Origin: Blautia sp.
GTDB lineage: Bacteria > Bacillota > Clostridia > Lachnospirales > Lachnospiraceae
Length of the DNA: 63,547 bases
Reading direction: 5' to 3'
NCBI GenBank assembly: GCA_017463155.1
Contig: JAFTPT010000030.1
Location: 1-63,547, forward strand
Position 1 is the first letter of the stretch. Each line of letters opens with the position of its first letter. This document shows, in pieces, positions 7,944 to 19,229 of this stretch. The notes below the pieces were generated by a model. It did not search any database and had not been told where the DNA came from. It saw nothing but the letters and a program-made list of their open reading frames with translations. Position numbers and translations under genes: made by a program.

Positions 7944-8267
7944 CTATTGAAGTCTGTCGTACTTGTCAGCCTTTCCTTTCGCTTTCTCAATCGGATATTT
8001 CTGTTCGTTCCTGGTCATCTTCTCATTCACAATCTCGTCCTCATCAAGGTCAAGTTTGTCGAGCATATTTCTGCAATAAACCAGAACATCTGCCAGTTCC
8101 TCTCTTACATGCGCAATATCATAATCTGTATCGCTCCATTGGAAACACTCTAGCAATTCATTTGCCTCAATAGAGATGGATTTCGCCAGATTGGCGGGCG
8201 AATGAAACTGATCCCAATCCCGATCCTCCGTAAACCTACGGATCCTGTCAATTGTTTCCTGGTTCAT
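7944..8267 (-). CDS. MazG-like nucleotide pyrophosphohydrolase
   Basis: A 107-residue all-alpha protein of the MazG/dUTPase-like superfamily that hydrolyses (d)NTPs to monophosphates. The signature is visible: NLAKSISIEANELLECFQW (an EXXE helix) followed by REELADVLVYCRNMLD (EXXD), which together bind Mg2+. The length is that of single-domain members. The ATG overlaps the TGA of the nuclease-helicase gene (ATGA), so translation is coupled. The substrate may be a normal, damaged or phage-modified nucleotide; sequence does not decide. Confidence 0.9.
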   Translation of the reverse strand: MNQETIDRIRRFTEDRDWDQFHSPANLAKSISIEANELLECFQWSDTDYDIAHVREELADVLVYCRNMLDKLDLDEDEIVNEKMTRNEQKYPIEKAKGKADKYDRLQ

Positions 8268-10159
8268 GGTTCCTCCTTTTTGTTGTGATCATCCTTACTC
8301 ATAGTAATCGTATCACCCGCCAATCTTGATTTCAGATACTGTTTAAGGTTCTCATCTCTGCAATATACATAACATCCATATCTACCTCTTGACATCAGTA
8401 CTTTGTAGATCTGTTTTACATATTGGCTGAGTCGCTTCTGCTGTCCCCTCAGGCCTTTCTTTCCGGAAACATCCTTATATTCATCAAAATCTACGAATAA
8501 AGCATGGCTTTCCGGATCATATTTTAAATCGTTACCGATAATAACCCCAACATAATCAAACTCAAGTCCTTGAACAGTATGAATACACCCTATCTGGTTC
8601 ACAGAGTCTTCTTTTATTGCGAAAAGTGCACGTTGGTTTCTTGCGTTCCATGGCATGCTAAAGTTCTTCTCTGGAATCGTAACGTCATCAACAGCTGCAT
8701 TTTTATCATCCGACCATTCCCATGCAAAGCCCGCAACCATACGAGAACTATTGTGAGTCTTCTCATTTCTAAGACGGATTATTTCGTACATATCATTTGG
8801 GTCATCAAAAATGCGAAACTCAAATTCCTTCTGATCCCATCCTTCAAAATTAGCCGTATCTTCAATTTGAAGTGTATGCGTCACCCAGTTCACAAATCCT
8901 TCGGCGCCAGAACACCGGAACTGTGCTTTCAGTTCCATTTCAACAACCTCAGAGCCTTCTGCCTCCGCTGCTTTACGGATTTCTTCCACGGAGCCTATAT
9001 CAGCAGGAACGACTTTCTGCGAATCATCTACAAAAAACACATTCAGCCAGGACGCATGAATGATATCCTGTATCTGGTTCTCACCTTTATACATAAATGC
9101 ACCTTTTCCCTTCAGACGATGTGCTTCATCTACGACAAGGACATCATATGCATTCATAGGAACACCAAAAAACGTACCCGCCCCTCCAAATAATGGGGTG
9201 ATATTTTTAGACTTGTCCACCTTGGAAGCAACAAGTTTTTTAACCATAACTTCACGAAAGGCTTCATTTGGAGCAACAAATTTTGCATTCAACCTTCTGT
9301 CGATCAAATTATGAAGGACCTTAAAAGAGATAACGGATTTTCCTGTCCCCGGTCCGCCTTTTACGATTATTGTCTTTTTGTTGTTAATTGCTTCAAGTTC
9401 TTTACAGATAGTATTATAGGCAATAACCTGCTCATCAAGCAGGATAAACTCATCATTACCGGTATAAAGTGAATCTACACAATCTACCAGTGCCATTGAT
9501 GGGCGAATCCGGCCATGTTCGATCTCATAGAGAATATCCATTCCGTTTCCGGCGCCGACCATCTTCTTCAGATAGTCCTGCAGTTTCCGATAATCATCAA
9601 TAAAGTAGATCGGTGCACGCTTCGTTCCTTCTCTGTAACGGGAATCCAGGAGCGGTTCAGGATCCTTCTTTGTATAGTTATGAAGATAGACACATGGAGA
9701 TCCGTCTATATCATTTGCATAGATTCCTTCATTCATCAGATTCATCATCCGGATGTAGCTCTCTGCCTGATATGAAGGATGTGGAACATCGTGAAATCCT
9801 CCACCGACAAATGTATGTACAAGTTCTGGAATGTCTGTTGTTTCTGCACTCTCCCATTGTTTTAATTCCACCAGGACATACTTTTTCTCCTGTTTTTCAT
9901 TTCGGCCTGTAACAATAAAATCGACACGCTTGCTTGTGTTGGGAATCGTATATTCGATCAGGACACCACAATCATCACCGACTCCAGAGTTTCGAAGGAC
10001 TCTCTCCATATACTGCATGGAGTTTCTCCAGGCTGTTTTTTCCGAAGGTGCCTCCCTATGGCCAATCCTCTCTATAAATCTTTCCTCGATAATATCAGCA
10101 ATATGATTTGATTCCACATCCTGCCTGAATGCCAGATTCGTATTACTGTAAATGATCAT
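8264..10159 (-). CDS. DUF2075 nuclease-helicase
   Basis: About 631 residues. The N-terminal part has a PD-(D/E)XK-like nuclease pattern (RVDFIVTGR, then VLVELKQWES, about residues 75-105). It is followed by a DUF2075/Schlafen-type superfamily 1 helicase: Walker A GGPGTGKSV near residue 268, Walker B VLVVDEAHRL, and C-terminal helicase motifs including IHTVQGLEFDYVGVI and YKVLMSRGRYG. The start MIIYSNTNLAF at 10159 is chosen. Longer in-frame starts would translate through the TATAAT box at 10203-10208 and into a terminator hairpin. Proteins of this kind are frequent in defence and mobile-gene settings. The coupling to MazG fits a nucleic-acid or nucleotide surveillance role (inference). Confidence 0.85.
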   Translation of the reverse strand: MIIYSNTNLAFRQDVESNHIADIIEERFIERIGHREAPSEKTAWRNSMQYMERVLRNSGVGDDCGVLIEYTIPNTSKRVDFIVTGRNEKQEKKYVLVELKQWESAETTDIPELVHTFVGGGFHDVPHPSYQAESYIRMMNLMNEGIYANDIDGSPCVYLHNYTKKDPEPLLDSRYREGTKRAPIYFIDDYRKLQDYLKKMVGAGNGMDILYEIEHGRIRPSMALVDCVDSLYTGNDEFILLDEQVIAYNTICKELEAINNKKTIIVKGGPGTGKSVISFKVLHNLIDRRLNAKFVAPNEAFREVMVKKLVASKVDKSKNITPLFGGAGTFFGVPMNAYDVLVVDEAHRLKGKGAFMYKGENQIQDIIHASWLNVFFVDDSQKVVPADIGSVEEIRKAAEAEGSEVVEMELKAQFRCSGAEGFVNWVTHTLQIEDTANFEGWDQKEFEFRIFDDPNDMYEIIRLRNEKTHNSSRMVAGFAWEWSDDKNAAVDDVTIPEKNFSMPWNARNQRALFAIKEDSVNQIGCIHTVQGLEFDYVGVIIGNDLKYDPESHALFVDFDEYKDVSGKKGLRGQQKRLSQYVKQIYKVLMSRGRYGCYVYCRDENLKQYLKSRLAGDTITMSKDDHNKKEEP

Positions 10160-10202
10160 TGGTCCATCCCACCCTTCCGATTCCTCTGTTAGTTCAAATA
10201 CA

Positions 10203-10208
10203 ATTATA
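10203..10208 (-). promoter_or_regulatory. -10 box of the nuclease-helicase operon
   Basis: TATAAT on the minus strand, extended by TATGC upstream, 44 bases before the ATG at 10159. The -35 region is poor (near TTTCTG), so the promoter may rely on the extended -10. Confidence 0.5.
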
Positions 10209-10260
10209 GCATATCGCCGGAAATACAGAAAGGTAATCCCTGGCATCTTTATGTAATAAA

Positions 10261-10290
10261 CGGCAGAGAAGGTTCTGTTCTTCTCTGCCG
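10261..10290 (-). terminator. Terminator after the LtrA-like gene
   Basis: CGGCAGAGAA and TTCTCTGCCG form a perfect 10-base stem, followed on the minus strand by TTTATTA. It ends the 19-kb-to-10-kb operon and insulates the nuclease-helicase promoter. Confidence 0.75.
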
Positions 10291-10344
10291 TTTCTTTATT
10301 CTTTACCACAACTGCACATAAAGACTTTATCGTAAACTATCTCA

Positions 10345-11445
10345 TCAGGATTTTGCCGTTTTCCTGATCGTAAAGAATACGAAGAAAACGTACACAACCG
10401 TGATCAGGATATTTACATACATGCGTTCCCTCATGAGGAGCATGCTGATCACAAAAAGAATGGTCAGGACAAGCACCGGTGCAAGGGATCTCCTGCAGCA
10501 CCGCCGTTCCTCTTTCGCAAAGGCCATGAGCGCAAACATGCAGCCGAACACCAGCAGAAAAGAGCCGATCAGCATCAGGGTCTTCGGCATCAGCCTGATC
10601 TTCTCGTCCTGCATGAACTCAAGAGCGGTCGTCAGATTGTTCATGCCAAACACCAGAAAGATGTGGATCATCATATAGCCGAGCCCCGTCGTCTCCTTTT
10701 CACGGTCGACGATGTGGTCATAGAGCATCTCATAGCAGAGAAAGAGCCCCACAACGATCAGGAAGCACATGGCCGAAAAATAGATGGAAGAAAAATCGAG
10801 CTCCCCTTCAAAATAGGACGCCAGCGCTATGATCATCTCGCCGAAGGTAAAGACCACGAACAACATGGCCCGCTCCGATAAATGCATAAAGTCAACGTTG
10901 GTCTGCCTTACCTTTCCGGCAATGAACCATGTGCCCGCAATACCGCAAAGGACCGCCACTCCGGCGAGCTGGACCCCGGTCGCATTGAATATGGGGATGG
11001 CGGCCAGTATAAGCGCCGCCTCTCCGAAGAGCACCTTGCACATACCGTTGATCGTCCGCAGTTCCTCCGGACTTTTCTGTTCCCTGCGCTCAAGCAGGAA
11101 CTGAATTCCGATATTGATGAGGATCAGGGCCCACGCCACGTGGTACTGGTTCTGGAAGCGTTCCCAGTGAAGCCTTGTCCCCTCACCGATATAGTACAGA
11201 AGATACATGTTCACAAACATGAACACGTGGTCACGGACCCGGTTCCGACCGAAAATATTGGTATAATAGGTTGAAAAATTCCAGATCTGGATCACGGCCA
11301 GGCTGCTGAGAATATAGGCCAGGTACACGGATCCGTTTACAAACCCGCCGTCTACATGCAGCAGGAGAGAATTATTCCGCCCGATGATGTAGACAAAGAT
11401 CAGATCATAGACAAGTTCAAGATATTCAACTTTCTTTTCACTCAT
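10345..11445 (-). CDS. LtrA-like low-temperature-requirement membrane protein
   Basis: A 366-residue polytopic protein with about ten membrane helices. The N-terminal signature KKVEYLELVYDLIFVYIIGR matches the V-x-x-x-E-L-x-x-D-L-x-F-V start of the LtrA family, named for a Listeria gene needed for growth in the cold. The molecular function is unknown. A ribosome site (AAGGAAAC) precedes the ATG. It lies 67 bases after the SpoIIE-type phosphatase on the same strand, with no terminator between, so it is probably the last gene of that operon. Confidence 0.8.
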   Translation of the reverse strand: MSEKKVEYLELVYDLIFVYIIGRNNSLLLHVDGGFVNGSVYLAYILSSLAVIQIWNFSTYYTNIFGRNRVRDHVFMFVNMYLLYYIGEGTRLHWERFQNQYHVAWALILINIGIQFLLERREQKSPEELRTINGMCKVLFGEAALILAAIPIFNATGVQLAGVAVLCGIAGTWFIAGKVRQTNVDFMHLSERAMLFVVFTFGEMIIALASYFEGELDFSSIYFSAMCFLIVVGLFLCYEMLYDHIVDREKETTGLGYMMIHIFLVFGMNNLTTALEFMQDEKIRLMPKTLMLIGSFLLVFGCMFALMAFAKEERRCCRRSLAPVLVLTILFVISMLLMRERMYVNILITVVYVFFVFFTIRKTAKS

Positions 11446-11512
11446 CTTCTGTTTCCTTGTAATCTCCGGTTCCTGTGACGCCGGGAGGACGTCCCCTCAC
11501 AGTCCCGTTTTG

Positions 11513-13795
11513 TCAGATATGTTTCCGCACGGTCAGGACATTTTTGCCGGCTTCATAATTGTAGAACACCTCATCCATCGTCTGTTTAACGATATGGATG
11601 CCCAGACCGCCGATCCTGCGTTCTTCCGGCCTCAGCGTGATGTCCGGATCCGGCTGGCTGACTGGATCGAAAGGCATGCCGCTGTCCGTAAAGACCAGCT
11701 CCACAAGCCGTGCAGCCGGATCAAACGAAAGCGAGATTCTTGCGTCTCCGTCTCCTCCGTCATAAGCATAATTGGCGATGTTCACAAAGATCTCTTCCAC
11801 CACAAGTGTGAAAGAAAAGATCAGGTCCTCGTCACAGTCAACCGCCTCCAGTTTTTCCTGTACAAACGCGTTGACCTCATCGAGGCTTTCAACCCTGGCC
11901 GGTACGGTCAGGATGCTTGTCTCCGGCTTTGCCCCTCTGTTGGGACCCACATACCGGAAAGCGAGCATGGTGATATCGTCAAACTGCGGAGCGTCCTTCA
12001 CAAACGCATGGATCGCATCATGCAGCCGTCTGATCTGCTCCTCCGCCCCGGCATCGGGATTCTCGTTAAGTATCTGTACGATCCGTTCCTCGCCAAACTG
12101 GGCAAGGTCTGCGTCCGTCGCCTCCGTTACACCGTCGGTGTATTGGAACAGACAGTCTCCGGGTTCCAGCAGCAGTTCATATTCATGATACCGGAGTCCG
12201 TCCAGGACACCCAGCGCCGGATCATGTTCATCCATCAGGAGTTCAAACACACCGTTCTTTCGCCTGATCACCGGATATTCATGTCCTGCGTTGGCTGCCA
12301 GAAGCCGCCCCGAGGACAGTTCCAGAATGCCCAGCCATGCCGTGCAGAACATGAAGGAATCGTTGTTCTGACGAAGCAGGTGATTCACATAGGTCAATAT
12401 CTCTTTTGGCGAACCGCCGCTCTGGGCATGATTCTTAAGAAGCGTCTTGGAAATGACCATGAACAGCGAAGCCGGAACGCCCTTGCCGGAAACGTCCGCG
12501 ATCGTCAGGGCCAGATGATCCTGGTCGATGAAGTAAAAGTCGTAGAAATCTCCTCCGACCTCCTTCGCCGGCGTCATGCTGGCGTAAAGATCGATCTCTT
12601 CCCTGTCCGGGAACGGTGGAAAAACACCGGGCAGCATATCTCTCTGAATCTTGGAAGCAACATCCAGCTCCGCCCCGATCCGTTCCTTCTCGGCGGTTAC
12701 TGTTTTGAGGTTTTCCGTATAATTCTCGACTTCCTGCACAAGACCCACGCAGGTCCTGGTCAGATTGCTGACTTCCCCGTATCCATACCGGTATGGTTTG
12801 CACCTGGCCGTAACGGTTCCCGGGTCCAGGCTGCCTTCCTCATGTGCCGTATACTGTTCCAGCACGTCCGAAAGGTGAAGGATCGGTTTGGTGACCTTCT
12901 TCTCGATGGAGCGCATAAACAGCATCTCGATGAGCAGCAGCGCATTCAGCATCACCGCGAGCATCACATAATACCAGTTCCAGAATGAGAAGTAGCGTTC
13001 GAGGGAGATGATCGAGTCTTCCGACCATTCCGTCGCGCTCTGCTTTACGATAACGTCATACTCCTGAAAAAGGTCCGGATCCAGATAATACGAGGTACGG
13101 TACAAAAGATACGCACCGATCACCGAAGCGATCACGCCGATAAGCAGAAAGGCGAGCACCATCCTCTCATTGATGGTCACCGTCCTGTTTCGGATCACGG
13201 ACACGACCACGACCACAGGAATACCGACGATCAGGACCGCATTCAGATACTGTGTATACAATACCGCCCAGGACAGCAGGTTATCTGTGTTGAGCGGGGC
13301 TGACGTCCCGATTCCATAAAATGCAACCAGAACGGCCACACTCACGAGCATGATGAGATAATACTTGAAAACATGCAAAGATGTATCCAGCCTCGGATAC
13401 CTGACTCGCTCTTCTCCCCTCAGCGGTATGGAATACCACAGGACCGCGGGCAGTGCAGAATAGACGATCAGCACCAGGTTCGTCATCGCAACATAGAACG
13501 TTTCACTCGGCAATCCGCTCGCGGGCTTGACGATCAGGAAGTACTGCACCGCGGAGACAAGCCCCGAAAGCAGACAGCCGATGACGCCCCAGATTCCCTG
13601 CAAAAACCCGAATATGGGCAGGATCGCCACCGCCGGGTCAAAATCGGAGATCACGCGGATGTCCGAGAGCAGGGTCGATAAATAGGCAAACCCCCTGCAC
13701 AAAAGGAAGCATACCAGCACCGACAGAAGGTTCTTCTTCCATCCGTAGCTGCGGATCAGGCCGAAGCCGGATCTCCATTTCTTTTCTTCATTCAT
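11513..13795 (-). CDS. Membrane SpoIIE-type PP2C phosphatase fused to an HATPase kinase domain
   Basis: A 760-residue sensor-effector. About residues 20-300 hold eight or so membrane helices. A HAMP-like stretch and coiled coil lead to a PP2C/SpoIIE phosphatase domain (about 400-600) with metal-binding EVGGDFYDFY, IADVSGKGVPASLFM and FDDITMLAF. A C-terminal HATPase domain of RsbW/SpoIIAB type (about 625-760) has N-box VVEEIFVNIANYAY, FTDSGMPFDP and GGLGIHIV. One polypeptide thus carries both the phosphatase and the probable kinase for a STAS protein, which is encoded three bases upstream. Signals sensed by the membrane part would set the phosphorylation state of that partner. No sigma factor is nearby. 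Confidence 0.92.
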   Translation of the reverse strand: MNEEKKWRSGFGLIRSYGWKKNLLSVLVCFLLCRGFAYLSTLLSDIRVISDFDPAVAILPIFGFLQGIWGVIGCLLSGLVSAVQYFLIVKPASGLPSETFYVAMTNLVLIVYSALPAVLWYSIPLRGEERVRYPRLDTSLHVFKYYLIMLVSVAVLVAFYGIGTSAPLNTDNLLSWAVLYTQYLNAVLIVGIPVVVVVSVIRNRTVTINERMVLAFLLIGVIASVIGAYLLYRTSYYLDPDLFQEYDVIVKQSATEWSEDSIISLERYFSFWNWYYVMLAVMLNALLLIEMLFMRSIEKKVTKPILHLSDVLEQYTAHEEGSLDPGTVTARCKPYRYGYGEVSNLTRTCVGLVQEVENYTENLKTVTAEKERIGAELDVASKIQRDMLPGVFPPFPDREEIDLYASMTPAKEVGGDFYDFYFIDQDHLALTIADVSGKGVPASLFMVISKTLLKNHAQSGGSPKEILTYVNHLLRQNNDSFMFCTAWLGILELSSGRLLAANAGHEYPVIRRKNGVFELLMDEHDPALGVLDGLRYHEYELLLEPGDCLFQYTDGVTEATDADLAQFGEERIVQILNENPDAGAEEQIRRLHDAIHAFVKDAPQFDDITMLAFRYVGPNRGAKPETSILTVPARVESLDEVNAFVQEKLEAVDCDEDLIFSFTLVVEEIFVNIANYAYDGGDGDARISLSFDPAARLVELVFTDSGMPFDPVSQPDPDITLRPEERRIGGLGIHIVKQTMDEVFYNYEAGKNVLTVRKHI

Positions 13796-13798
13796 TTC

Positions 13799-14098
13799 TT
13801 ATTCCAGATTCAGGAAAGTATCAAAGCCCGTCACCTTGAATACGTTAATGATATTCTTGCTGGCACCGCGGATCTTCATGCTGCCGTTCTTGCTGTTCAT
13901 CCAGTTCTGTGCAGCCAGGACCGTACGAAGTCCCGCTGAGGAGATGTAGGCAACCTGGGTAAAATCAAGGACCAGTTCCGTCACGCCGTCGATGGAAGCC
14001 TTGATCGCATCCTCCAGTTCCGGCGCGGTCTGCGTGTCGACTCGTCCTTCGATCATCATGGTAAGGGTCGTGTTTTCCAGCTGATTGTTGATCGTCAT
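13799..14098 (-). CDS. STAS-domain anti-anti-sigma-like protein
   Basis: A 99-residue single STAS domain of the SpoIIAA/RsbV family. The phosphorylatable serine lies in the usual place, FTQVAYISSAGLRTVLAAQ (S55 or S56 region). It follows a GGAGG site and ends three bases before the phosphatase/kinase start, so the pair is made together. In known systems the unphosphorylated form binds an HATPase partner. Here candidate partners are the HATPase domain of the next gene and the HATPase-like tail of the AMP-ligase encoded upstream. Confidence 0.93.
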   Translation of the reverse strand: MTINNQLENTTLTMMIEGRVDTQTAPELEDAIKASIDGVTELVLDFTQVAYISSAGLRTVLAAQNWMNSKNGSMKIRGASKNIINVFKVTGFDTFLNLE

Positions 14099-14162
14099 GA
14101 TAGTATCCTCCTAATTCGTTCATGTGTAGTCCGGCACGGCCGGGATTGTCTGTCCTTTTCCT

Positions 14163-15371
14163 TTACGGGAGCAGGTAATCGTTCCAGATATTTGCAAATA
14201 CCTCGATCCGTGGATACGCGTAGACCACGATGGCCACCGTCGCGATCCAGACGAGGACAGTAAATGCGATCATTTTTGCCCCTTTCAGGTTGGCAAAATG
14301 GATGTTCCAGTACTTTTCGTTCAGTTCCACGATCGCGTAACAGACGACGATGAGAAGCAGGCTGTACACGATCGGGAGCACCCTTCCGGGGAGTACATGG
14401 CCGGTGGCGGCGATCAGGATCGTCTGCACCGGAAGAATAAACATGTAGTGAACACAGTAGTAATTATTGATATGTGCCGAAAACTGTGTGACGATCTTCG
14501 GAAGCTTTCCGTCAAACAGCTTCACGAACTTGTACAGCAGCGCCAGGACTCCCAGGGTAAAGAGGCAGGTCGCGATGGCGTCCGGCAGCGGTTTCATGTT
14601 GTACTGGAGATCCGACCCCAGTTCAGGAAGGAAGGACATCTCCAGCGCGAACCGGAGCACATAGTAGACGAGGGCCAGCGGGAAGCAGATCGCCATGATC
14701 CTGTTCGCGAGTGCATCCTTGTCCTTGACTCTCGGATAATAGCCGCCGATAAAATAGCCGAACGCTGCAAAAATAAAGTAGCAGAACAGCGGAAAGTAGG
14801 CTTCCGCATCGGTGATGATGAAATATCCGAGCAGCTGGCTGGCCAGGTAACTGTCCGGCGACGGAACCGTGTGCCAGGCAAGCAGTGCGAGAAAGCTCAT
14901 CACCACGCTGATCCCGAGGATCGTCCCGTTCTTCAGCTTCAGTTTTTTGAACAAAGCCATCAGAAGGAACGCAAGTCCCGCAAAGCTCAGGATATCCGAC
15001 TGCAGGACCAGGAAGGAATTGGCGATGAAAAACTGCCTGCCTGTGATCCAGTAGGCGATCAGGTTCGGAAGCGCGTTCCGCATGATGTTCAGGAACTGGC
15101 CGATGGTCAGCAGGGCAAAGCCCCGGACCAGATAGGCCGACGATGACTGTCTGCGCATATAGCACATGCCGATGCCCATGCATGTCATGAAGGTCGCCGC
15201 CCCGAAAAACTCAGTGAGATAATCATCGATCACGCTCGGCATGACCTGCTTTCCCAGATCGAGAACGACATGGACAACGATCATTCCGACCACGCAGAGT
15301 GCTTTCAGAAGATCCAGCTCCGGCTGACGCCCTGTGTTTACTTTTTCATCTGCAAAATACCGGCTGCTCAT
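14163..15371 (-). CDS. Polytopic membrane protein, acyltransferase-like
   Basis: 402 residues with about ten to eleven membrane helices. The opening RQPELDLLKALCVVGMIVVHVVLDLG has the [R/E]xxxLDxLK...H pattern of acyltransferase-3/heparan-acetyltransferase-like proteins, with a His at the end of helix 1. Its start overlaps the stop of the AMP-ligase by four bases (ATGA), so the two are translated as a pair. This suggests it uses or transports the acyl product of that ligase. The family assignment is weaker than for the gene at 770-1855. Confidence 0.7.
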   Translation of the reverse strand: MSSRYFADEKVNTGRQPELDLLKALCVVGMIVVHVVLDLGKQVMPSVIDDYLTEFFGAATFMTCMGIGMCYMRRQSSSAYLVRGFALLTIGQFLNIMRNALPNLIAYWITGRQFFIANSFLVLQSDILSFAGLAFLLMALFKKLKLKNGTILGISVVMSFLALLAWHTVPSPDSYLASQLLGYFIITDAEAYFPLFCYFIFAAFGYFIGGYYPRVKDKDALANRIMAICFPLALVYYVLRFALEMSFLPELGSDLQYNMKPLPDAIATCLFTLGVLALLYKFVKLFDGKLPKIVTQFSAHINNYYCVHYMFILPVQTILIAATGHVLPGRVLPIVYSLLLIVVCYAIVELNEKYWNIHFANLKGAKMIAFTVLVWIATVAIVVYAYPRIEVFANIWNDYLLP

Positions 15372-17377
15372 TTGATCACCTTGTAGCGCATCAGGTAGTC
15401 CTTGACGCTGAAATCATCGTTGTAGGTATAATCGAGACAGTATTCGGTCTCACCGTCCGCATTCTCACCGGACGCATAGGAATCGACGTTGGCCAGGATG
15501 ATCCGCGCGCTGATCGAGGCGTCCTCGGATTCGAGGGAGTACTTTCTGCCGGTGTCGGTGAAGCGCAGGCGCATCCACTGCGGCATGAGCAGCACTTCCA
15601 TACGGATCTCTCCGTTCTCCTCAAACGCGTTGTCGATACGGTCTGTCAGCATTTCTTCCACGCTCAGGCGGATCTGACCCGCTTTTTCTTCATCAAAGTG
15701 AAGCTGCTCCGCAAGCTGCTGGATCATGGAGCAGGCAGGTACGATGGTGTAGTTGCGGTTCTTTACCTTGAGGTCAAGGATCCGCAGACCTTCGTTCATG
15801 GCGGCTGTCAGTGCAAGCTCATACAGCCTTCCGATCATGTCCGTATGCAGACCCCTCTGGTTCAGCTTGCCGTTCTCGTTGAGAGGGAACGCGTCATAGA
15901 CAAAGAAATGAGACGGAACCTTGAAGGAAGCCAGTTTGTTTTTGAGCCGGGCTCTCAGATCGTCTTCATCCAGCGGGCCCTTCTTAAGCACAACGCAGGC
16001 CTCCACGCTCTCACCCCAGATCGGGTGTGTCGCTCCCATGACCTTGGCTTCACGGATCTCGGGCTGTTCCATCAGGGCTCTCTCGATCTCGACGGGAGAA
16101 ATGTTCTCGCCGCTGCGGATGATAATGTCCTTGATACGGCCGGAAAACTGCAGCATACCGTCCTCGTCAAAGCGGCCGAGGTCACCGGTGTGAAGCCATC
16201 CGTCCTTGTCGATCGCCTGTTTTTCTTCGGGCAGGCCATAGTAGCCGTTCATCAGGCTCGGACCCTTGACGACGATCTCACCGATCTCGCCCTGTGCCGC
16301 AAAGCCGGTATCCGCATTCCAGATGCGCACCTCATGGTTGGGAAGGCTTCGTCCGACGGAGACTGCTCTCCTTTCCAGCGGATCCTGGGGAGTCTCCACG
16401 GTGATCACGGGTGAACACTCGGTCTGTCCGTAGCCGCACAGCAGCTTGCCGCCTCCGAGGAGCTTTTCGAAGCGCATCATTTCCACAGGCGTTGTAAAGC
16501 CGCCTCCGACGATGCAGAGCTCCAGCTGTCCGGAGAGCTTTTCTTCGAATTCCGGCATCGAGGTCAGCATCCCGTAGATCGCTCCGACCGAGCACATATT
16601 CGTGATCTGGTTCTCATAGATCATCTGCAGCAGGGTATCCGGTTTCAGAAGCGGTGTCAGGAACACGTGACGGCCCATCGCCAGGTAGGCATGGGCGACC
16701 ATCAGTCCATAGCTGTGGAAGGTCGGAAGCGCCAGGCAGAGCTTTTCGCCGACGGCGTCGCCCAGCATAAGCATAGCGCCTTCGCAATTGCTGAGGACGG
16801 AACGTGAGGACTGCAGGACCGCCTTGGGGATGGATGTCGTACCGGTGGTGTAGATGATGACCTGGGAATCCTCCGGTTTTGTTCTCGTATAAGCCTCTTC
16901 GAGAAGCTTCTGATCCTCCGCGGAGATCGGTGCGAAGGCTGTGGGCTCTACAAATGCGGTGGCCGGGAAGATGTGCTGCGCCGGTACGCCGCCGTCCATA
17001 AGGGCTTTTGCAGCCGCGTTCGGATCCGCGATGCTGATCGTGTTTCCGCCGATGATACCCCAGGAGGCATCGACCATCTTTGTAAGGGCACTGACATCAG
17101 CAGCCTTCAATCCGTAATTCATAAGGGAAGCCACACCGCCGGCCTGGGTGATGCCAAAAAAGGCAACCATCCACTCGATCCCGTTAAATCCCCAGAGGAC
17201 AGCCTTGTCGCCCTTCTGGAAGCCCGCATGGAGCAGCTTCAGCGTACAGTTGTCCGCCGCTCTCTTCAGCTGTCCGTACGTGACGGTTGTTCCGCGGCTG
17301 GTAATCGCCGGACGGTCCGGATATTCAAGCGCACCCTGGATCAATGTCTGTGAAAAAAGTTTTGTCTCAAATCTCAT
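15368..17377 (-). CDS. AMP-forming acyl-CoA ligase fused to a degenerate HATPase-like domain
   Basis: A 669-residue fusion. Residues 1 to about 500 are an ANL-superfamily acyl-activating enzyme: P-loop IIYTTGTTSIPKAV, GYGQTECSP, the hinge region GDLGRFDEDGMLQFSGRIKD, and the C-terminal lysine in ENGKLNQ. About residues 510-669 resemble an RsbW-type HATPase, with SVEEMLTDRIDNAF in the N-box position and FTDTGRKYSLES for the G1 box. The N-box Asn is replaced by Asp and the glycine-rich G2 box is missing, so it probably does not bind ATP normally. A tail of this kind could dock the STAS protein encoded downstream. The gene overlaps both neighbours by four bases. The start follows GAGGAGAAG. The acyl substrate is unknown. 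Confidence 0.88.
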   Translation of the reverse strand: MRFETKLFSQTLIQGALEYPDRPAITSRGTTVTYGQLKRAADNCTLKLLHAGFQKGDKAVLWGFNGIEWMVAFFGITQAGGVASLMNYGLKAADVSALTKMVDASWGIIGGNTISIADPNAAAKALMDGGVPAQHIFPATAFVEPTAFAPISAEDQKLLEEAYTRTKPEDSQVIIYTTGTTSIPKAVLQSSRSVLSNCEGAMLMLGDAVGEKLCLALPTFHSYGLMVAHAYLAMGRHVFLTPLLKPDTLLQMIYENQITNMCSVGAIYGMLTSMPEFEEKLSGQLELCIVGGGFTTPVEMMRFEKLLGGGKLLCGYGQTECSPVITVETPQDPLERRAVSVGRSLPNHEVRIWNADTGFAAQGEIGEIVVKGPSLMNGYYGLPEEKQAIDKDGWLHTGDLGRFDEDGMLQFSGRIKDIIIRSGENISPVEIERALMEQPEIREAKVMGATHPIWGESVEACVVLKKGPLDEDDLRARLKNKLASFKVPSHFFVYDAFPLNENGKLNQRGLHTDMIGRLYELALTAAMNEGLRILDLKVKNRNYTIVPACSMIQQLAEQLHFDEEKAGQIRLSVEEMLTDRIDNAFEENGEIRMEVLLMPQWMRLRFTDTGRKYSLESEDASISARIILANVDSYASGENADGETEYCLDYTYNDDFSVKDYLMRYKVIK

Positions 17378-19173
17378 GTTCTTCTCCTCTTTCGTAAAAA
17401 GATAAGACCTCCGATGATAGCATTTATCCCTAACAGGATCAACAGTGCCTTGATCGTCTGGTTCCTGAGATAGATCAGTGCATAGTCGAAAACCCTGTAG
17501 TAACCGTTGAAATGATATTTCAGCAGCGGCTCGGTCAGTATACGCTGCTGTGGAAGCGGATCCTCCACAGGCCGGATCTCGTCATCAAGGATCATTGTCG
17601 TGCGACGCGCTGCATCATACGGCTTCCAGTAATGCTTTTCGGTGGAGGGATCGCCGGTCTTCGCAAAGTTTACCCACATCTGCTGGACCTCATCCGCCAG
17701 CGTCTTGTCTGCCGGCTTTCCTGTAAAGATCGTATCCTCCGTATTGTTGAACACATAGGCGAGCTCGATCGCATGGCAGGCGCCGTAATGGGGGATATCG
17801 GATTCCTTTGTCCAGTAGTACATATAATGCTTTCCGCCGTTCTCCACGTGGGACTGGGCCTGGCGGATGGCCGGTACACGGAACAGAAGATCATTGAAGA
17901 ATTCGGTCTTTTTCCAGACATCATCGCTGGTCTGCAGCGCAAGCAGAGCATCCGCATAGTGTCTGTCTTCTTCGTCGATCTGTTCCAGCACCGATCCGTA
18001 CAGGAGCCGGCTTCCGATCCTGTATATGGGATAACCGCCCACCTCGTCGATCCAGTATCTTGCCTCATCGGCATTGGTCCCGGTCAGCATATCGATGTCC
18101 GAAGCCTTGCCGTCGGCATACGCGGCGTACACGTCCTCCGGCAGCACGATCCCGTCCCTCTCCGGAAAATTATTGTAATCATTCAGTTTTTCATTGATCA
18201 TCATCAGATCCTGCTCGCTGAGGGAGAGCAGGTCCTTCATGGAAGAAGCCTTGGCTTCCTTCAGCAGGTCCTGCGTCAGCGTCCGGGCTTCCTCGCGGCT
18301 GAAGGAAAAAGCGATCGAGCCGCTCTCGGCGATCGCGCGCCGGAACAGGCCCTTTGCCTCGTCGATCAGCGGAAGGAACGAGACGCTGCTGGCGCCGGCA
18401 GACTCACCAAAGATCGTCACATTGTCCGGATTGCCGCCGAACAAAGCGATATTCCGGTTGACCCACCGGAGGGCACTGATCTGGTCAAGAAGTCCCAGAT
18501 TGCCGCTCTTCTCGTACTCTTCACCGCCCTCTACCTCCGAAAAGTCCATAAAGCCCATCAGTCCGATCCGGTAATTGACCGTCACCAGAACGATATCCGG
18601 ATGTGCTTCGACAAAATTCTGTCCGTCGTAGATCGGGTCGGCCGTGCCTCCCCAGCCGTAAGCCCCGCCGTGGAAGAAGACCATGACCGTTTTGGGGCCG
18701 GATTCCTGTTCTTCTTTACCGGATGCCGTCCAGATGTTCAGCGACAGACAGTCCTCACCCTGCGTATAGAGGGAAGCCCGCTCTGTTTCCGCCTCCGTCT
18801 GTATCGCGGCTTTTCCGAAATAGAAGGCTTCATAGACCCCGTCGTCCGCGGGAGCGTCCACCGGCGGCTTCCACCTGAGTTCTCCGACCGGCGGCAAGGC
18901 ATAGGGGATTCCTTTGTAGGAACGGACATTCTGTTTCTCCGTTCCGATAAAGGTACCGTTGTCGCAGGCGACCGCCAGAGTGCTGTCATAATCGCTGCCC
19001 GTGACTTCTTTGTTCTCACCCTTGATCTTTTCGAGCTTTGCCCGTTCCGTCTCAATTAATCTGTCTGATTTATCGATCGTCTTCCATATATAGACTGCCA
19101 GCACGATAATATTGCACAGGATCCATAAAAAGATCAACCGTATGATCCTGCGCACATGTTTATTCTTTGTCAT
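17374..19173 (-). CDS. Membrane-anchored type B carboxylesterase
   Basis: About 599 residues of the carboxylesterase/cholinesterase alpha/beta-hydrolase family, which cleaves carboxylic esters. An N-terminal helix (RRIIRLIFLWILCNIIVLAV) and a C-terminal helix followed by RKRRRT would hold the catalytic domain on the outer face. The nucleophile is Ser258 in the GESAGAS elbow. The oxyanion region FFHGGAYGWGG, the acid loop near TNADEARYW and a probable catalytic His in GACHAIELAYVF are present. The start at 19173 has GGAG seven bases upstream; the ATG two codons earlier is too close. It is the first gene of the operon and overlaps the AMP-ligase by four bases. Confidence 0.9.
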   Translation of the reverse strand: MTKNKHVRRIIRLIFLWILCNIIVLAVYIWKTIDKSDRLIETERAKLEKIKGENKEVTGSDYDSTLAVACDNGTFIGTEKQNVRSYKGIPYALPPVGELRWKPPVDAPADDGVYEAFYFGKAAIQTEAETERASLYTQGEDCLSLNIWTASGKEEQESGPKTVMVFFHGGAYGWGGTADPIYDGQNFVEAHPDIVLVTVNYRIGLMGFMDFSEVEGGEEYEKSGNLGLLDQISALRWVNRNIALFGGNPDNVTIFGESAGASSVSFLPLIDEAKGLFRRAIAESGSIAFSFSREEARTLTQDLLKEAKASSMKDLLSLSEQDLMMINEKLNDYNNFPERDGIVLPEDVYAAYADGKASDIDMLTGTNADEARYWIDEVGGYPIYRIGSRLLYGSVLEQIDEEDRHYADALLALQTSDDVWKKTEFFNDLLFRVPAIRQAQSHVENGGKHYMYYWTKESDIPHYGACHAIELAYVFNNTEDTIFTGKPADKTLADEVQQMWVNFAKTGDPSTEKHYWKPYDAARRTTMILDDEIRPVEDPLPQQRILTEPLLKYHFNGYYRVFDYALIYLRNQTIKALLILLGINAIIGGLIFLRKRRRT

Positions 19174-19200
19174 CTTCATACTCCATATGCATACGGAATT

Positions 19201-19229
19201 ATTATACTCTCGGGATAAAAAAAAAGCAA
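19201..19229 (-). promoter_or_regulatory. Promoter of the esterase-ligase-STAS-SpoIIE operon
   Basis: TTGCTT (19224-19229) and TATAAT (19201-19206) on the minus strand, 17 bases apart, 28 bases upstream of the esterase start. Confidence 0.75.

Follow-up and report, generated by a model that had tools for sequence, protein, structure and literature searches.

Partner switches are known chiefly as controls of sigma factors. Which target may such a switch have when its genes stand in one run with those of an acyl-activating enzyme? This question is raised by positions 10,345 to 19,229 of contig JAFTPT010000030.1 of Blautia sp. (assembly GCA_017463155.1; 63,547 nucleotides, this whole stretch being referred to as the window), where genes for an esterase (EST), an adenylate-forming (ANL) ligase (LIG), a membrane acyltransferase (AT), a STAS protein, a SpoIIE-HATPase protein and an LtrA-family protein follow one another. 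A first-pass annotation of this DNA had noted the absence of a sigma factor and a tail on the ligase that looks like the partner fold, and had proposed the ligase as the target of the switch. We estimate at roughly 0.6 the probability that the switch acts directly on acyl activation serving surface acylation, the enzyme itself being the output of the partner switch. Because two kinds of fusion place switch domains on ligases, genome data alone allow a target to be proposed; since related bacteria carry parts of the switch fused to the enzyme itself, the switch probably controls the ligase.

Switch domains on adenylate-forming ligases

Residues 1-512 of LIG make up a complete adenylate-forming enzyme with the catalytic motifs TTGTTSIPK (177), GYGQTE (315), HTGDLG (396), GRIKDIIIRSGENI and NENGKL (500). 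The key residues of the A3, A5, A7 and A8 motifs and the A10 lysine are invariant across 15 aligned ligases (alignments A1 and A5; L022, a near copy of L023, as well as L025 and L026, which are broken or cut, were excluded). The best NCBIfam match of LIG is the long-chain-fatty-acid-coenzyme A (CoA) ligase PRK06187 with 325 bits, below the cut-off of 476. LIG shares all catalytic motifs with the FadD/MenE-type ANL acyl-CoA ligases, but differs from these by its C-terminal HATPase-like tail; another ligase, in a related genus, differs by an N-terminal STAS domain.

Comparison of profiles suggests that the tail is related to the RsbW-type HATPase fold of partner switches. Aligned by hhalign, the profile of the 15 tails and that of 16 RsbW-type HATPases match with a probability of 96.2 % and an E-value of 2.3e-9 for the pair, and the best match of the tail profile among solved structures is RsbW (E 0.0062), which bears out the resemblance seen in the first-pass annotation. 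The 16 HATPases (alignment A6) comprise seven of nine SpoIIE HATPases (L013 and L015 excluded) and nine others picked by hand. In the window, the tail displays EEMLTD (574), TDTGRK (607) and, where the G2 box would be expected, SARIILANVD (623). The magnesium-binding asparagine of the N-box, kept in all 16 HATPases, is replaced by aspartate or glutamate in 15/15 tails, and the glycines of G2 are missing from each of them; the glutamate pair and the Asp-x-Gly of G1 are retained throughout. With the N-box asparagine and the G2 motifs lost, the tail is not favoured as an ordinary HATPase kinase. Judged by substitution ratios, tail and core appear about as constrained as each other. The median ratio of the proportions of nonsynonymous and synonymous differences (pN/pS) is 0.225 for the tail and 0.227 for the core (66 pairs among 12 of the 15 aligned ligases), and the corresponding ratio of rates (dN/dS) is 0.107 (58 unsaturated pairs) and 0.120 (65 pairs), respectively, with synonymous sites near saturation.

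The strongest new evidence for the ligase as switch target is a second type of fusion, in which a STAS domain precedes another ligase. Reached via homologues of AT, genome G827 displays a gene of the AT family, a gene for a 635-aa STAS-ligase protein and a STAS gene in this order; the N-terminal STAS domain scores 43.5 bits (cut-off 22.6) and the complete ligase 254.6 bits. In a search of 121 relatives, the STAS-ligase fusion was found in six of the seven genomes listed for genus g412. All six fusions carry the phospho-site YISSAGLR in the STAS part and the ANL motifs in the ligase part, and their ligases are 31-33 % identical to that of the window. Tailed ligases form one clade and STAS-fused ligases another, each with 100/100 support, in an open radiation with tail-less ligases. 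As opposite ends of the ligase and different domains are involved, the two are different fusion events.

The surroundings of the STAS-ligase gene contain further switch genes. A gene of the AT family is present in 3/6 clusters (L204, L240, L243). Just 5 bases separate the end of a SpoIIE gene from the downstream STAS-ligase gene in L240 and L243; besides AT, both loci contain a second SpoIIE gene, and L243 HATPase and STAS genes as well. In L239, L241 and L242, STAS and HATPase genes lie near the STAS-ligase gene, with no AT in the stretch fetched. A 210-aa protein without Pfam match (L204:6478-7107), with conserved counterparts 3′ of STAS in L239, L241 and L242, has an N-box-like LAEETLG and is possibly another degenerate HATPase.

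The linkage between switch and ligase can be compared with ligases lacking switch domains. A separate STAS, HATPase or SpoIIE gene lies within 5 kb of the switch-domain ligase in 17/19 loci (11/13 tailed, 6/6 STAS-fused), as against none of 23 tail-less ligases; as the loci are related by descent, this contrast is descriptive. The two misses are L020, where the contig ends 308 bases beyond the AT gene, and L024. Among the 17, L028 scores solely via a MATE-HATPase fusion and L021 solely via STAS. Truncated or broken loci (L022, L023/L030, L025, L026, L029) are left out of the tailed set. The controls, 22 tail-less ligases from the search of relatives plus L210, were not randomly drawn, and for a few less than 2 kb is available on one side.

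The separate switch proteins of the window appear intact. The STAS protein exceeds the cut-off of TIGR00377 and carries ISSAG at residues 52-56, a motif present in 10/10 orthologues; Ser54, which we take to be the counterpart of Ser56 in RsbV, is probably the phosphorylation site. The SpoIIE-HATPase protein combines seven hydrophobic segments, a SpoIIE/PP2C phosphatase domain and an RsbW-type HATPase domain, and its domain order is that expected of a combined kinase and phosphatase. Its phosphatase domain holds all the aspartate motifs (GGDFYD, DVSGKG, QFDDITML), which in this family serve in metal binding, and the best structure match of the SpoIIE profile is a putative serine phosphatase (6k4e). 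The N, G1 and G2 boxes of its HATPase domain (EEIFVN 667, TDSG 703, GGLG 729) are intact, as they are in 9/9 SpoIIE proteins. Alignments A2, A3 and A4 hold 9, 10 and 11 rows, respectively (L013 excluded from A4). By their conserved serine, intact HATPase and PP2C phosphatase, the STAS and SpoIIE-HATPase proteins of the window are predicted to form a partner-switch module.

Conservation and layout of the operon

Conservation of the gene order with the ligase had been set beforehand as a check, and it was found: the order LIG-AT-STAS-SpoIIE is present in nine of the ten loci (window included) that have LIG, AT and sufficient downstream sequence, the eight relatives among them showing 54-85 % protein identity. 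L013 is counted among the nine although its AT is split into two frames. Outside the ten are L020-L023, with contigs that break off within or shortly beyond the AT or STAS gene, L026, which stops inside the ligase, and L025. In the last, a deletion (L025:10001-11459) fuses residues 1-389 of the ligase to the final part of the AT frame, and no STAS or SpoIIE gene was found there. Scanning contigs with the ligase yielded 15 loci; 11 bear Lachnospiraceae in their titles, and some titles name sheep or goat gut. L022 and L018 come from one assembly, and the contigs of L014, L016 and L027 also appear as G862, G981 and G1098. Chance adjacency of switch and ligase genes is rejected, given the conserved order in relatives and the control with tail-less ligases.

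A unit of all six genes, as the first-pass annotation had it, is not supported. EST lies upstream of LIG in 6/15 fetched loci (L014, L015, L016, L020, L021, L026; L013 has just 0.8 kb upstream, and L024 shows a weak 54-residue match only), by which it is rejected as a required core gene. LtrA was not found in six relatives with more than 1.3 kb beyond SpoIIE and is rejected as a functional part of the system.

The tailed-ligase system is rare. Matches to the ligase tail were obtained in 2/61 close relatives, in 3/392 genomes of the order (plus three weak matches to other proteins), in 1/391 genomes of the class, namely the window genome itself, and in 2/48 genomes of a second family. Within the family, full-length tailed ligases are present in 4/397 genomes; two additional weak matches are to short frames standing alone. 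The window genome is included in these counts wherever it was sampled. Plasmid carriage was found in 0/3163 matching plasmid records at an identity of at least 60 %.

In the window itself, open reading frames and Pfam matches confirm six consecutive genes on one strand (Table 1). The three tight junctions reported earlier were measured as overlaps of 4 bases at both EST/LIG and LIG/AT and a gap of 3 bases between STAS and SpoIIE; the remaining gaps are 64 (AT-STAS) and 67 bases (SpoIIE-LtrA). The sequence proposed as promoter reads as had been claimed, but is not among the outputs of a consensus promoter scan, which requires 4 or more matches in each hexamer and finds 3 here; a promoter upstream of EST seems plausible, yet unproven. 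EST has hydrophobic segments near both ends (residues 12-30 and 576-594) and GESAG at 258. AT passes the curated cut-offs of PF07786 (46.8; cut-off 22) and PF01757 (37; cut-off 31) and has eight hydrophobic segments by hydropathy; members of the HGSNAT_cat and Acyl_transf_3 families move acyl groups across membranes. No carrier-protein match was found among the operon genes (Pfam). Downstream of the operon, a Schlafen group 3 helicase-domain protein is encoded at 8264-10309 (PF09848, 301 bits).

Table 1. Features of the acyl-activation operon and its partner-switch genes (window coordinates).
Feature	Position	Strand	Evidence
Putative promoter TTGCTT-17 nt-TATAAT, precedes EST	19201..19229	-	direct reading of sequence
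EST, type-B carboxylesterase, 601 aa	17374..19179	-	PF00135 (COesterase) 329 bits
LIG, adenylate-forming (ANL) ligase, 669 aa	15368..17377	-	PF00501 (AMP-binding) 221 bits, PF13193 (AMP-binding_C) 59 bits
LIG tail, aa 519-669, putative degenerate HATPase domain	15371..15823	-	motifs, profile comparison
AT, multi-pass membrane acyltransferase, 402 aa	14163..15371	-	HGSNAT_cat / Acyl_transf_3
STAS protein, 99 aa	13799..14098	-	PF01740 48.5 bits
SpoIIE-HATPase, 760 aa	11513..13795	-	PF07228 167 bits and PF13581 (HATPase_c_2) 81 bits in one protein
LtrA-family membrane protein, 366 aa, last gene of run	10345..11445	-	PF06772 106 bits

Candidate targets and rival explanations

The absence of a sigma factor, on which the first-pass annotation had built, extends beyond the window: phmmer, run with three small sigma-70 proteins, detected sigma-like frames neither in the window nor in 13 further ligase loci. 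Across 14 carrier genomes, none has a SigB/F/G-type sigma factor over the curated cut-off of TIGR02980, and weaker sigma-70 matches are present in 14/14; the model is stringent, its cut-off being passed in only 1/14 control genomes, and completeness of the window genome is 92 %. The result lends no support to a SigB/F/G target at another place in the genome. Among the genes of the window run, Pfam displays no GGDEF match.

Several observations weigh against the ligase as target. The Pfam model HATPase_c_2 scores the window tail at 22.8 bits (E 1e-4, from residue 545) and the tails of four orthologues at 21.4-24.0 bits, so that 5/5 full-length proteins scanned stay below the cut-off of 27.4; two orthologue tails exceed it only when scored together with their neighbours in frame. 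L024 has LIG and AT with no STAS or SpoIIE gene in the next 8.8 kb, and the tailed ligase of L028 adjoins a MATE-HATPase fusion and nonribosomal-peptide-synthetase-like (NRPS-like) genes on a 13 kb contig with neither STAS nor SpoIIE. The L204 STAS-ligase cluster holds a small sigma-70 gene (Pfam), the sole one among the six clusters (phmmer). In another STAS-ligase cluster, a GGDEF protein (L239:3239-4411; partial match, 54 bits) is encoded between the STAS and HATPase genes. This sigma factor and this GGDEF protein could be targets of the switch genes of their clusters. Carrier G286 encodes a SigF-like sigma factor of 224.3 bits (cut-off 234.35) beside a HATPase gene. Further STAS-HATPase modules occur in carrier genomes (L182-L184, L192), in part close to small sigma-70 genes, so that cross-talk is possible. 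In L207:9326-12068 and L208:9304-12046, a gene of the AT family overlaps a SpoIIE gene, with no ligase in the stretch fetched. Finally, the loci are few and related, and their counts are not independent. The earlier interpretation is partly supported: its main point, the ligase as target, stands and is strengthened by the fusions and the linkage of 17/19 versus 0/23, while LtrA drops out of the unit and EST becomes a facultative part. In L204 and L239, other targets are conceivable.

An alternative target is AT, or a complex of AT, on which the switch might act directly while the tail of LIG merely docks the ligase there. The AT family often pairs with the switch, as it does with STAS-SpoIIE in the window, in half of the g412 clusters, and with SpoIIE in L207 and L208. 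We nevertheless regard this as unlikely, since the observed switch domains sit on ligases and not on this AT, and since a tailed ligase (L028) occurs without AT on its contig and three STAS-ligases (L239, L241, L242) without AT in the stretch fetched. Similarly unlikely appears a signal running in the opposite direction, in which the tail would bind nucleotide as a sensor, or act as a weak kinase, and inform a STAS protein acting elsewhere of the acyl or ATP status. Against it stand the exchange of the magnesium-binding asparagine and the missing G2 in 15/15 tails as well as the intact HATPase which SpoIIE already supplies, even if the glutamate pair and Asp-x-Gly preserve a part of the ATP pocket in every tail.

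It is improbable, finally, that STAS-SpoIIE is an ordinary regulator of expression, acting via a distant or extracytoplasmic-function (ECF)-type sigma factor or some other target, and merely co-transcribed with the acyl genes. Such a regulator would leave both the switch domains fused to ligases and the linkage unexplained, and sigma-like frames turned up neither in the window nor in the 13 ligase loci, and in just one of six STAS-ligase clusters; the other STAS-HATPase modules of the carriers, the sigma gene of L204 and the SigF-like gene of G286 speak for it.

Two further observations concern switch genes elsewhere. In L183, L184, L191, L192 and L204, STAS, HATPase or SpoIIE genes lie near genes for ABC exporters, some with small sigma-70 genes; for Peptidase_C39 in these neighbourhoods there is Pfam evidence for L183 only. 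In L188:6572-16186, a paralogous STAS/SpoIIE-HATPase pair directly precedes a polysaccharide-type cluster with sugar-transferase and glycosyltransferase genes. The genome of L188 also carries the ligase operon; this arrangement fits a surface theme and is no proof of it.

Proposed mechanism and related switches

We hypothesize that control by the switch, with the ligase as its target, would proceed as follows. The membrane part of the SpoIIE-HATPase protein may sense a signal; its HATPase domain would phosphorylate STAS on a serine, probably Ser54, which its PP2C domain would dephosphorylate upon sensing. Unphosphorylated STAS may then dock on the degenerate HATPase tail of LIG, as RsbV does on RsbW. 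Rotation of the C-terminal lobe is part of ANL catalysis. The tail comes after the A10 lysine (residue 504) of this lobe, with the HATPase-like part about 40 residues further on; because the tail follows the mobile lobe, docking of STAS could gate acyl activation by holding one lobe conformation, with either sign of control conceivable. CoA is suggested as the acceptor of the putative acyl substrate because no carrier protein is matched among the operon genes. The acyl-CoA product would be consumed by the adjacent AT, which may modify a surface or membrane molecule, and the anchored EST, where present, might trim or recycle the acylated molecule. In genus g412, the STAS domain fused N-terminally to the ligase would let the switch act in cis.

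With RsbU/RsbV/RsbW (SigB) and SpoIIE/SpoIIAA/SpoIIAB (SigF), the window system shares a STAS protein with a conserved serine, an RsbW-type HATPase and a SpoIIE-type phosphatase. Unlike these switches, it has its kinase and phosphatase domains united in a single membrane protein, and its putative target is an enzyme with a degenerate HATPase; since no sigma factor is present, it is not a member of this group. For the MlaB-MlaF system, we know of no SpoIIE or HATPase. There, a STAS protein is paired with an ABC ATPase as a non-sigma target, according to an excerpt of PMC7367683, and the target of MlaB differs from the one proposed here.

In the SiaABCD system of Pseudomonas aeruginosa, the diguanylate cyclase SiaD has SiaC as its binding partner and activator (PMC8457831, in excerpt), and the likeness lies in a switched partner protein directly activating an enzyme, as proposed here. 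The target there, however, is a diguanylate cyclase to whose stalk SiaC binds, and the same excerpt mentions neither an ANL ligase nor an enzyme-fused HATPase or STAS domain (PMC8457831). As no diguanylate cyclase is encoded in the window run, the system is not a member of SiaABCD; the NCBIfam match to SiaA has 62 bits (cut-off 700). SypE of Vibrio fischeri is a dual kinase/phosphatase acting on the STAS protein SypA, whose target is no known sigma factor (PMC8256260, in part). A protein of dual activity acting on STAS and an output other than sigma resemble the window system; in contrast, SypE is a response regulator, and the review gives the target of SypA as not known and names several further non-sigma STAS outputs without known target (PMC8256260). 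In its predicted working, the window system corresponds to a partner switch whose target is an enzyme. No description of an ANL-HATPase or STAS-ANL fusion was found in the open-licence literature among the matches listed.

The ligases may belong to a wider pattern. We see about an even chance that gut and rumen Clostridia use metabolic partner switches as a general class, defined by effectors that themselves bear a switch domain and by direct control with no transcription step involved. This class would include ligases with a HATPase-pseudokinase tail or STAS domain, MATE-HATPase fusions and APH proteins with STAS and/or HATPase domains, and a membrane phosphatase/kinase would set acyl activation, export and small-molecule phosphorylation, respectively.

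Matches to the MATE-fused HATPase part were obtained in 24/295 genomes of the order. All 30 stretches fetched around such matches carry MATE-HATPase as a fusion in one frame, with Pfam scores over cut-off in the three scanned. In L129:2091-13512, the gene for a 2418-aa protein containing two ligase domains is followed by MATE-HATPase, STAS, SpoIIE and HATPase genes in this order, with gaps of 2 bases or overlaps; in L128 and L133, MATE-HATPase is likewise accompanied by STAS, SpoIIE and HATPase genes, and in L128-L131 it is paired with very large multi-ligase (NRPS-like) genes. A SpoIIE gene adjoins MATE-HATPase in L119 and L121, and the fusion of L114 adds an HD-CE domain. The MATE-HATPase results in L124-L133 speak for the general class. 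Against the wider pattern, no separate STAS, SpoIIE or HATPase gene was seen in 24/30 of the MATE-HATPase stretches.

A further enzyme class that appears tied to the switch, judging by gene fusion and neighbourhood, is APH. STAS-APH phosphotransferase fusions lie near SpoIIE-HATPase genes, and STAS-APH-HATPase triple fusions lie beside a STAS gene (L189:8743-9921, L190:6978-8144, L185:5678-7264, L186:6594-8162 for the fusions beside switch genes).

If the proposed control of the ligase is true, acyl activation in these bacteria would be under phosphorylation control by a STAS/HATPase/SpoIIE trio, and the MATE-HATPase and STAS-APH fusions may find a common explanation.

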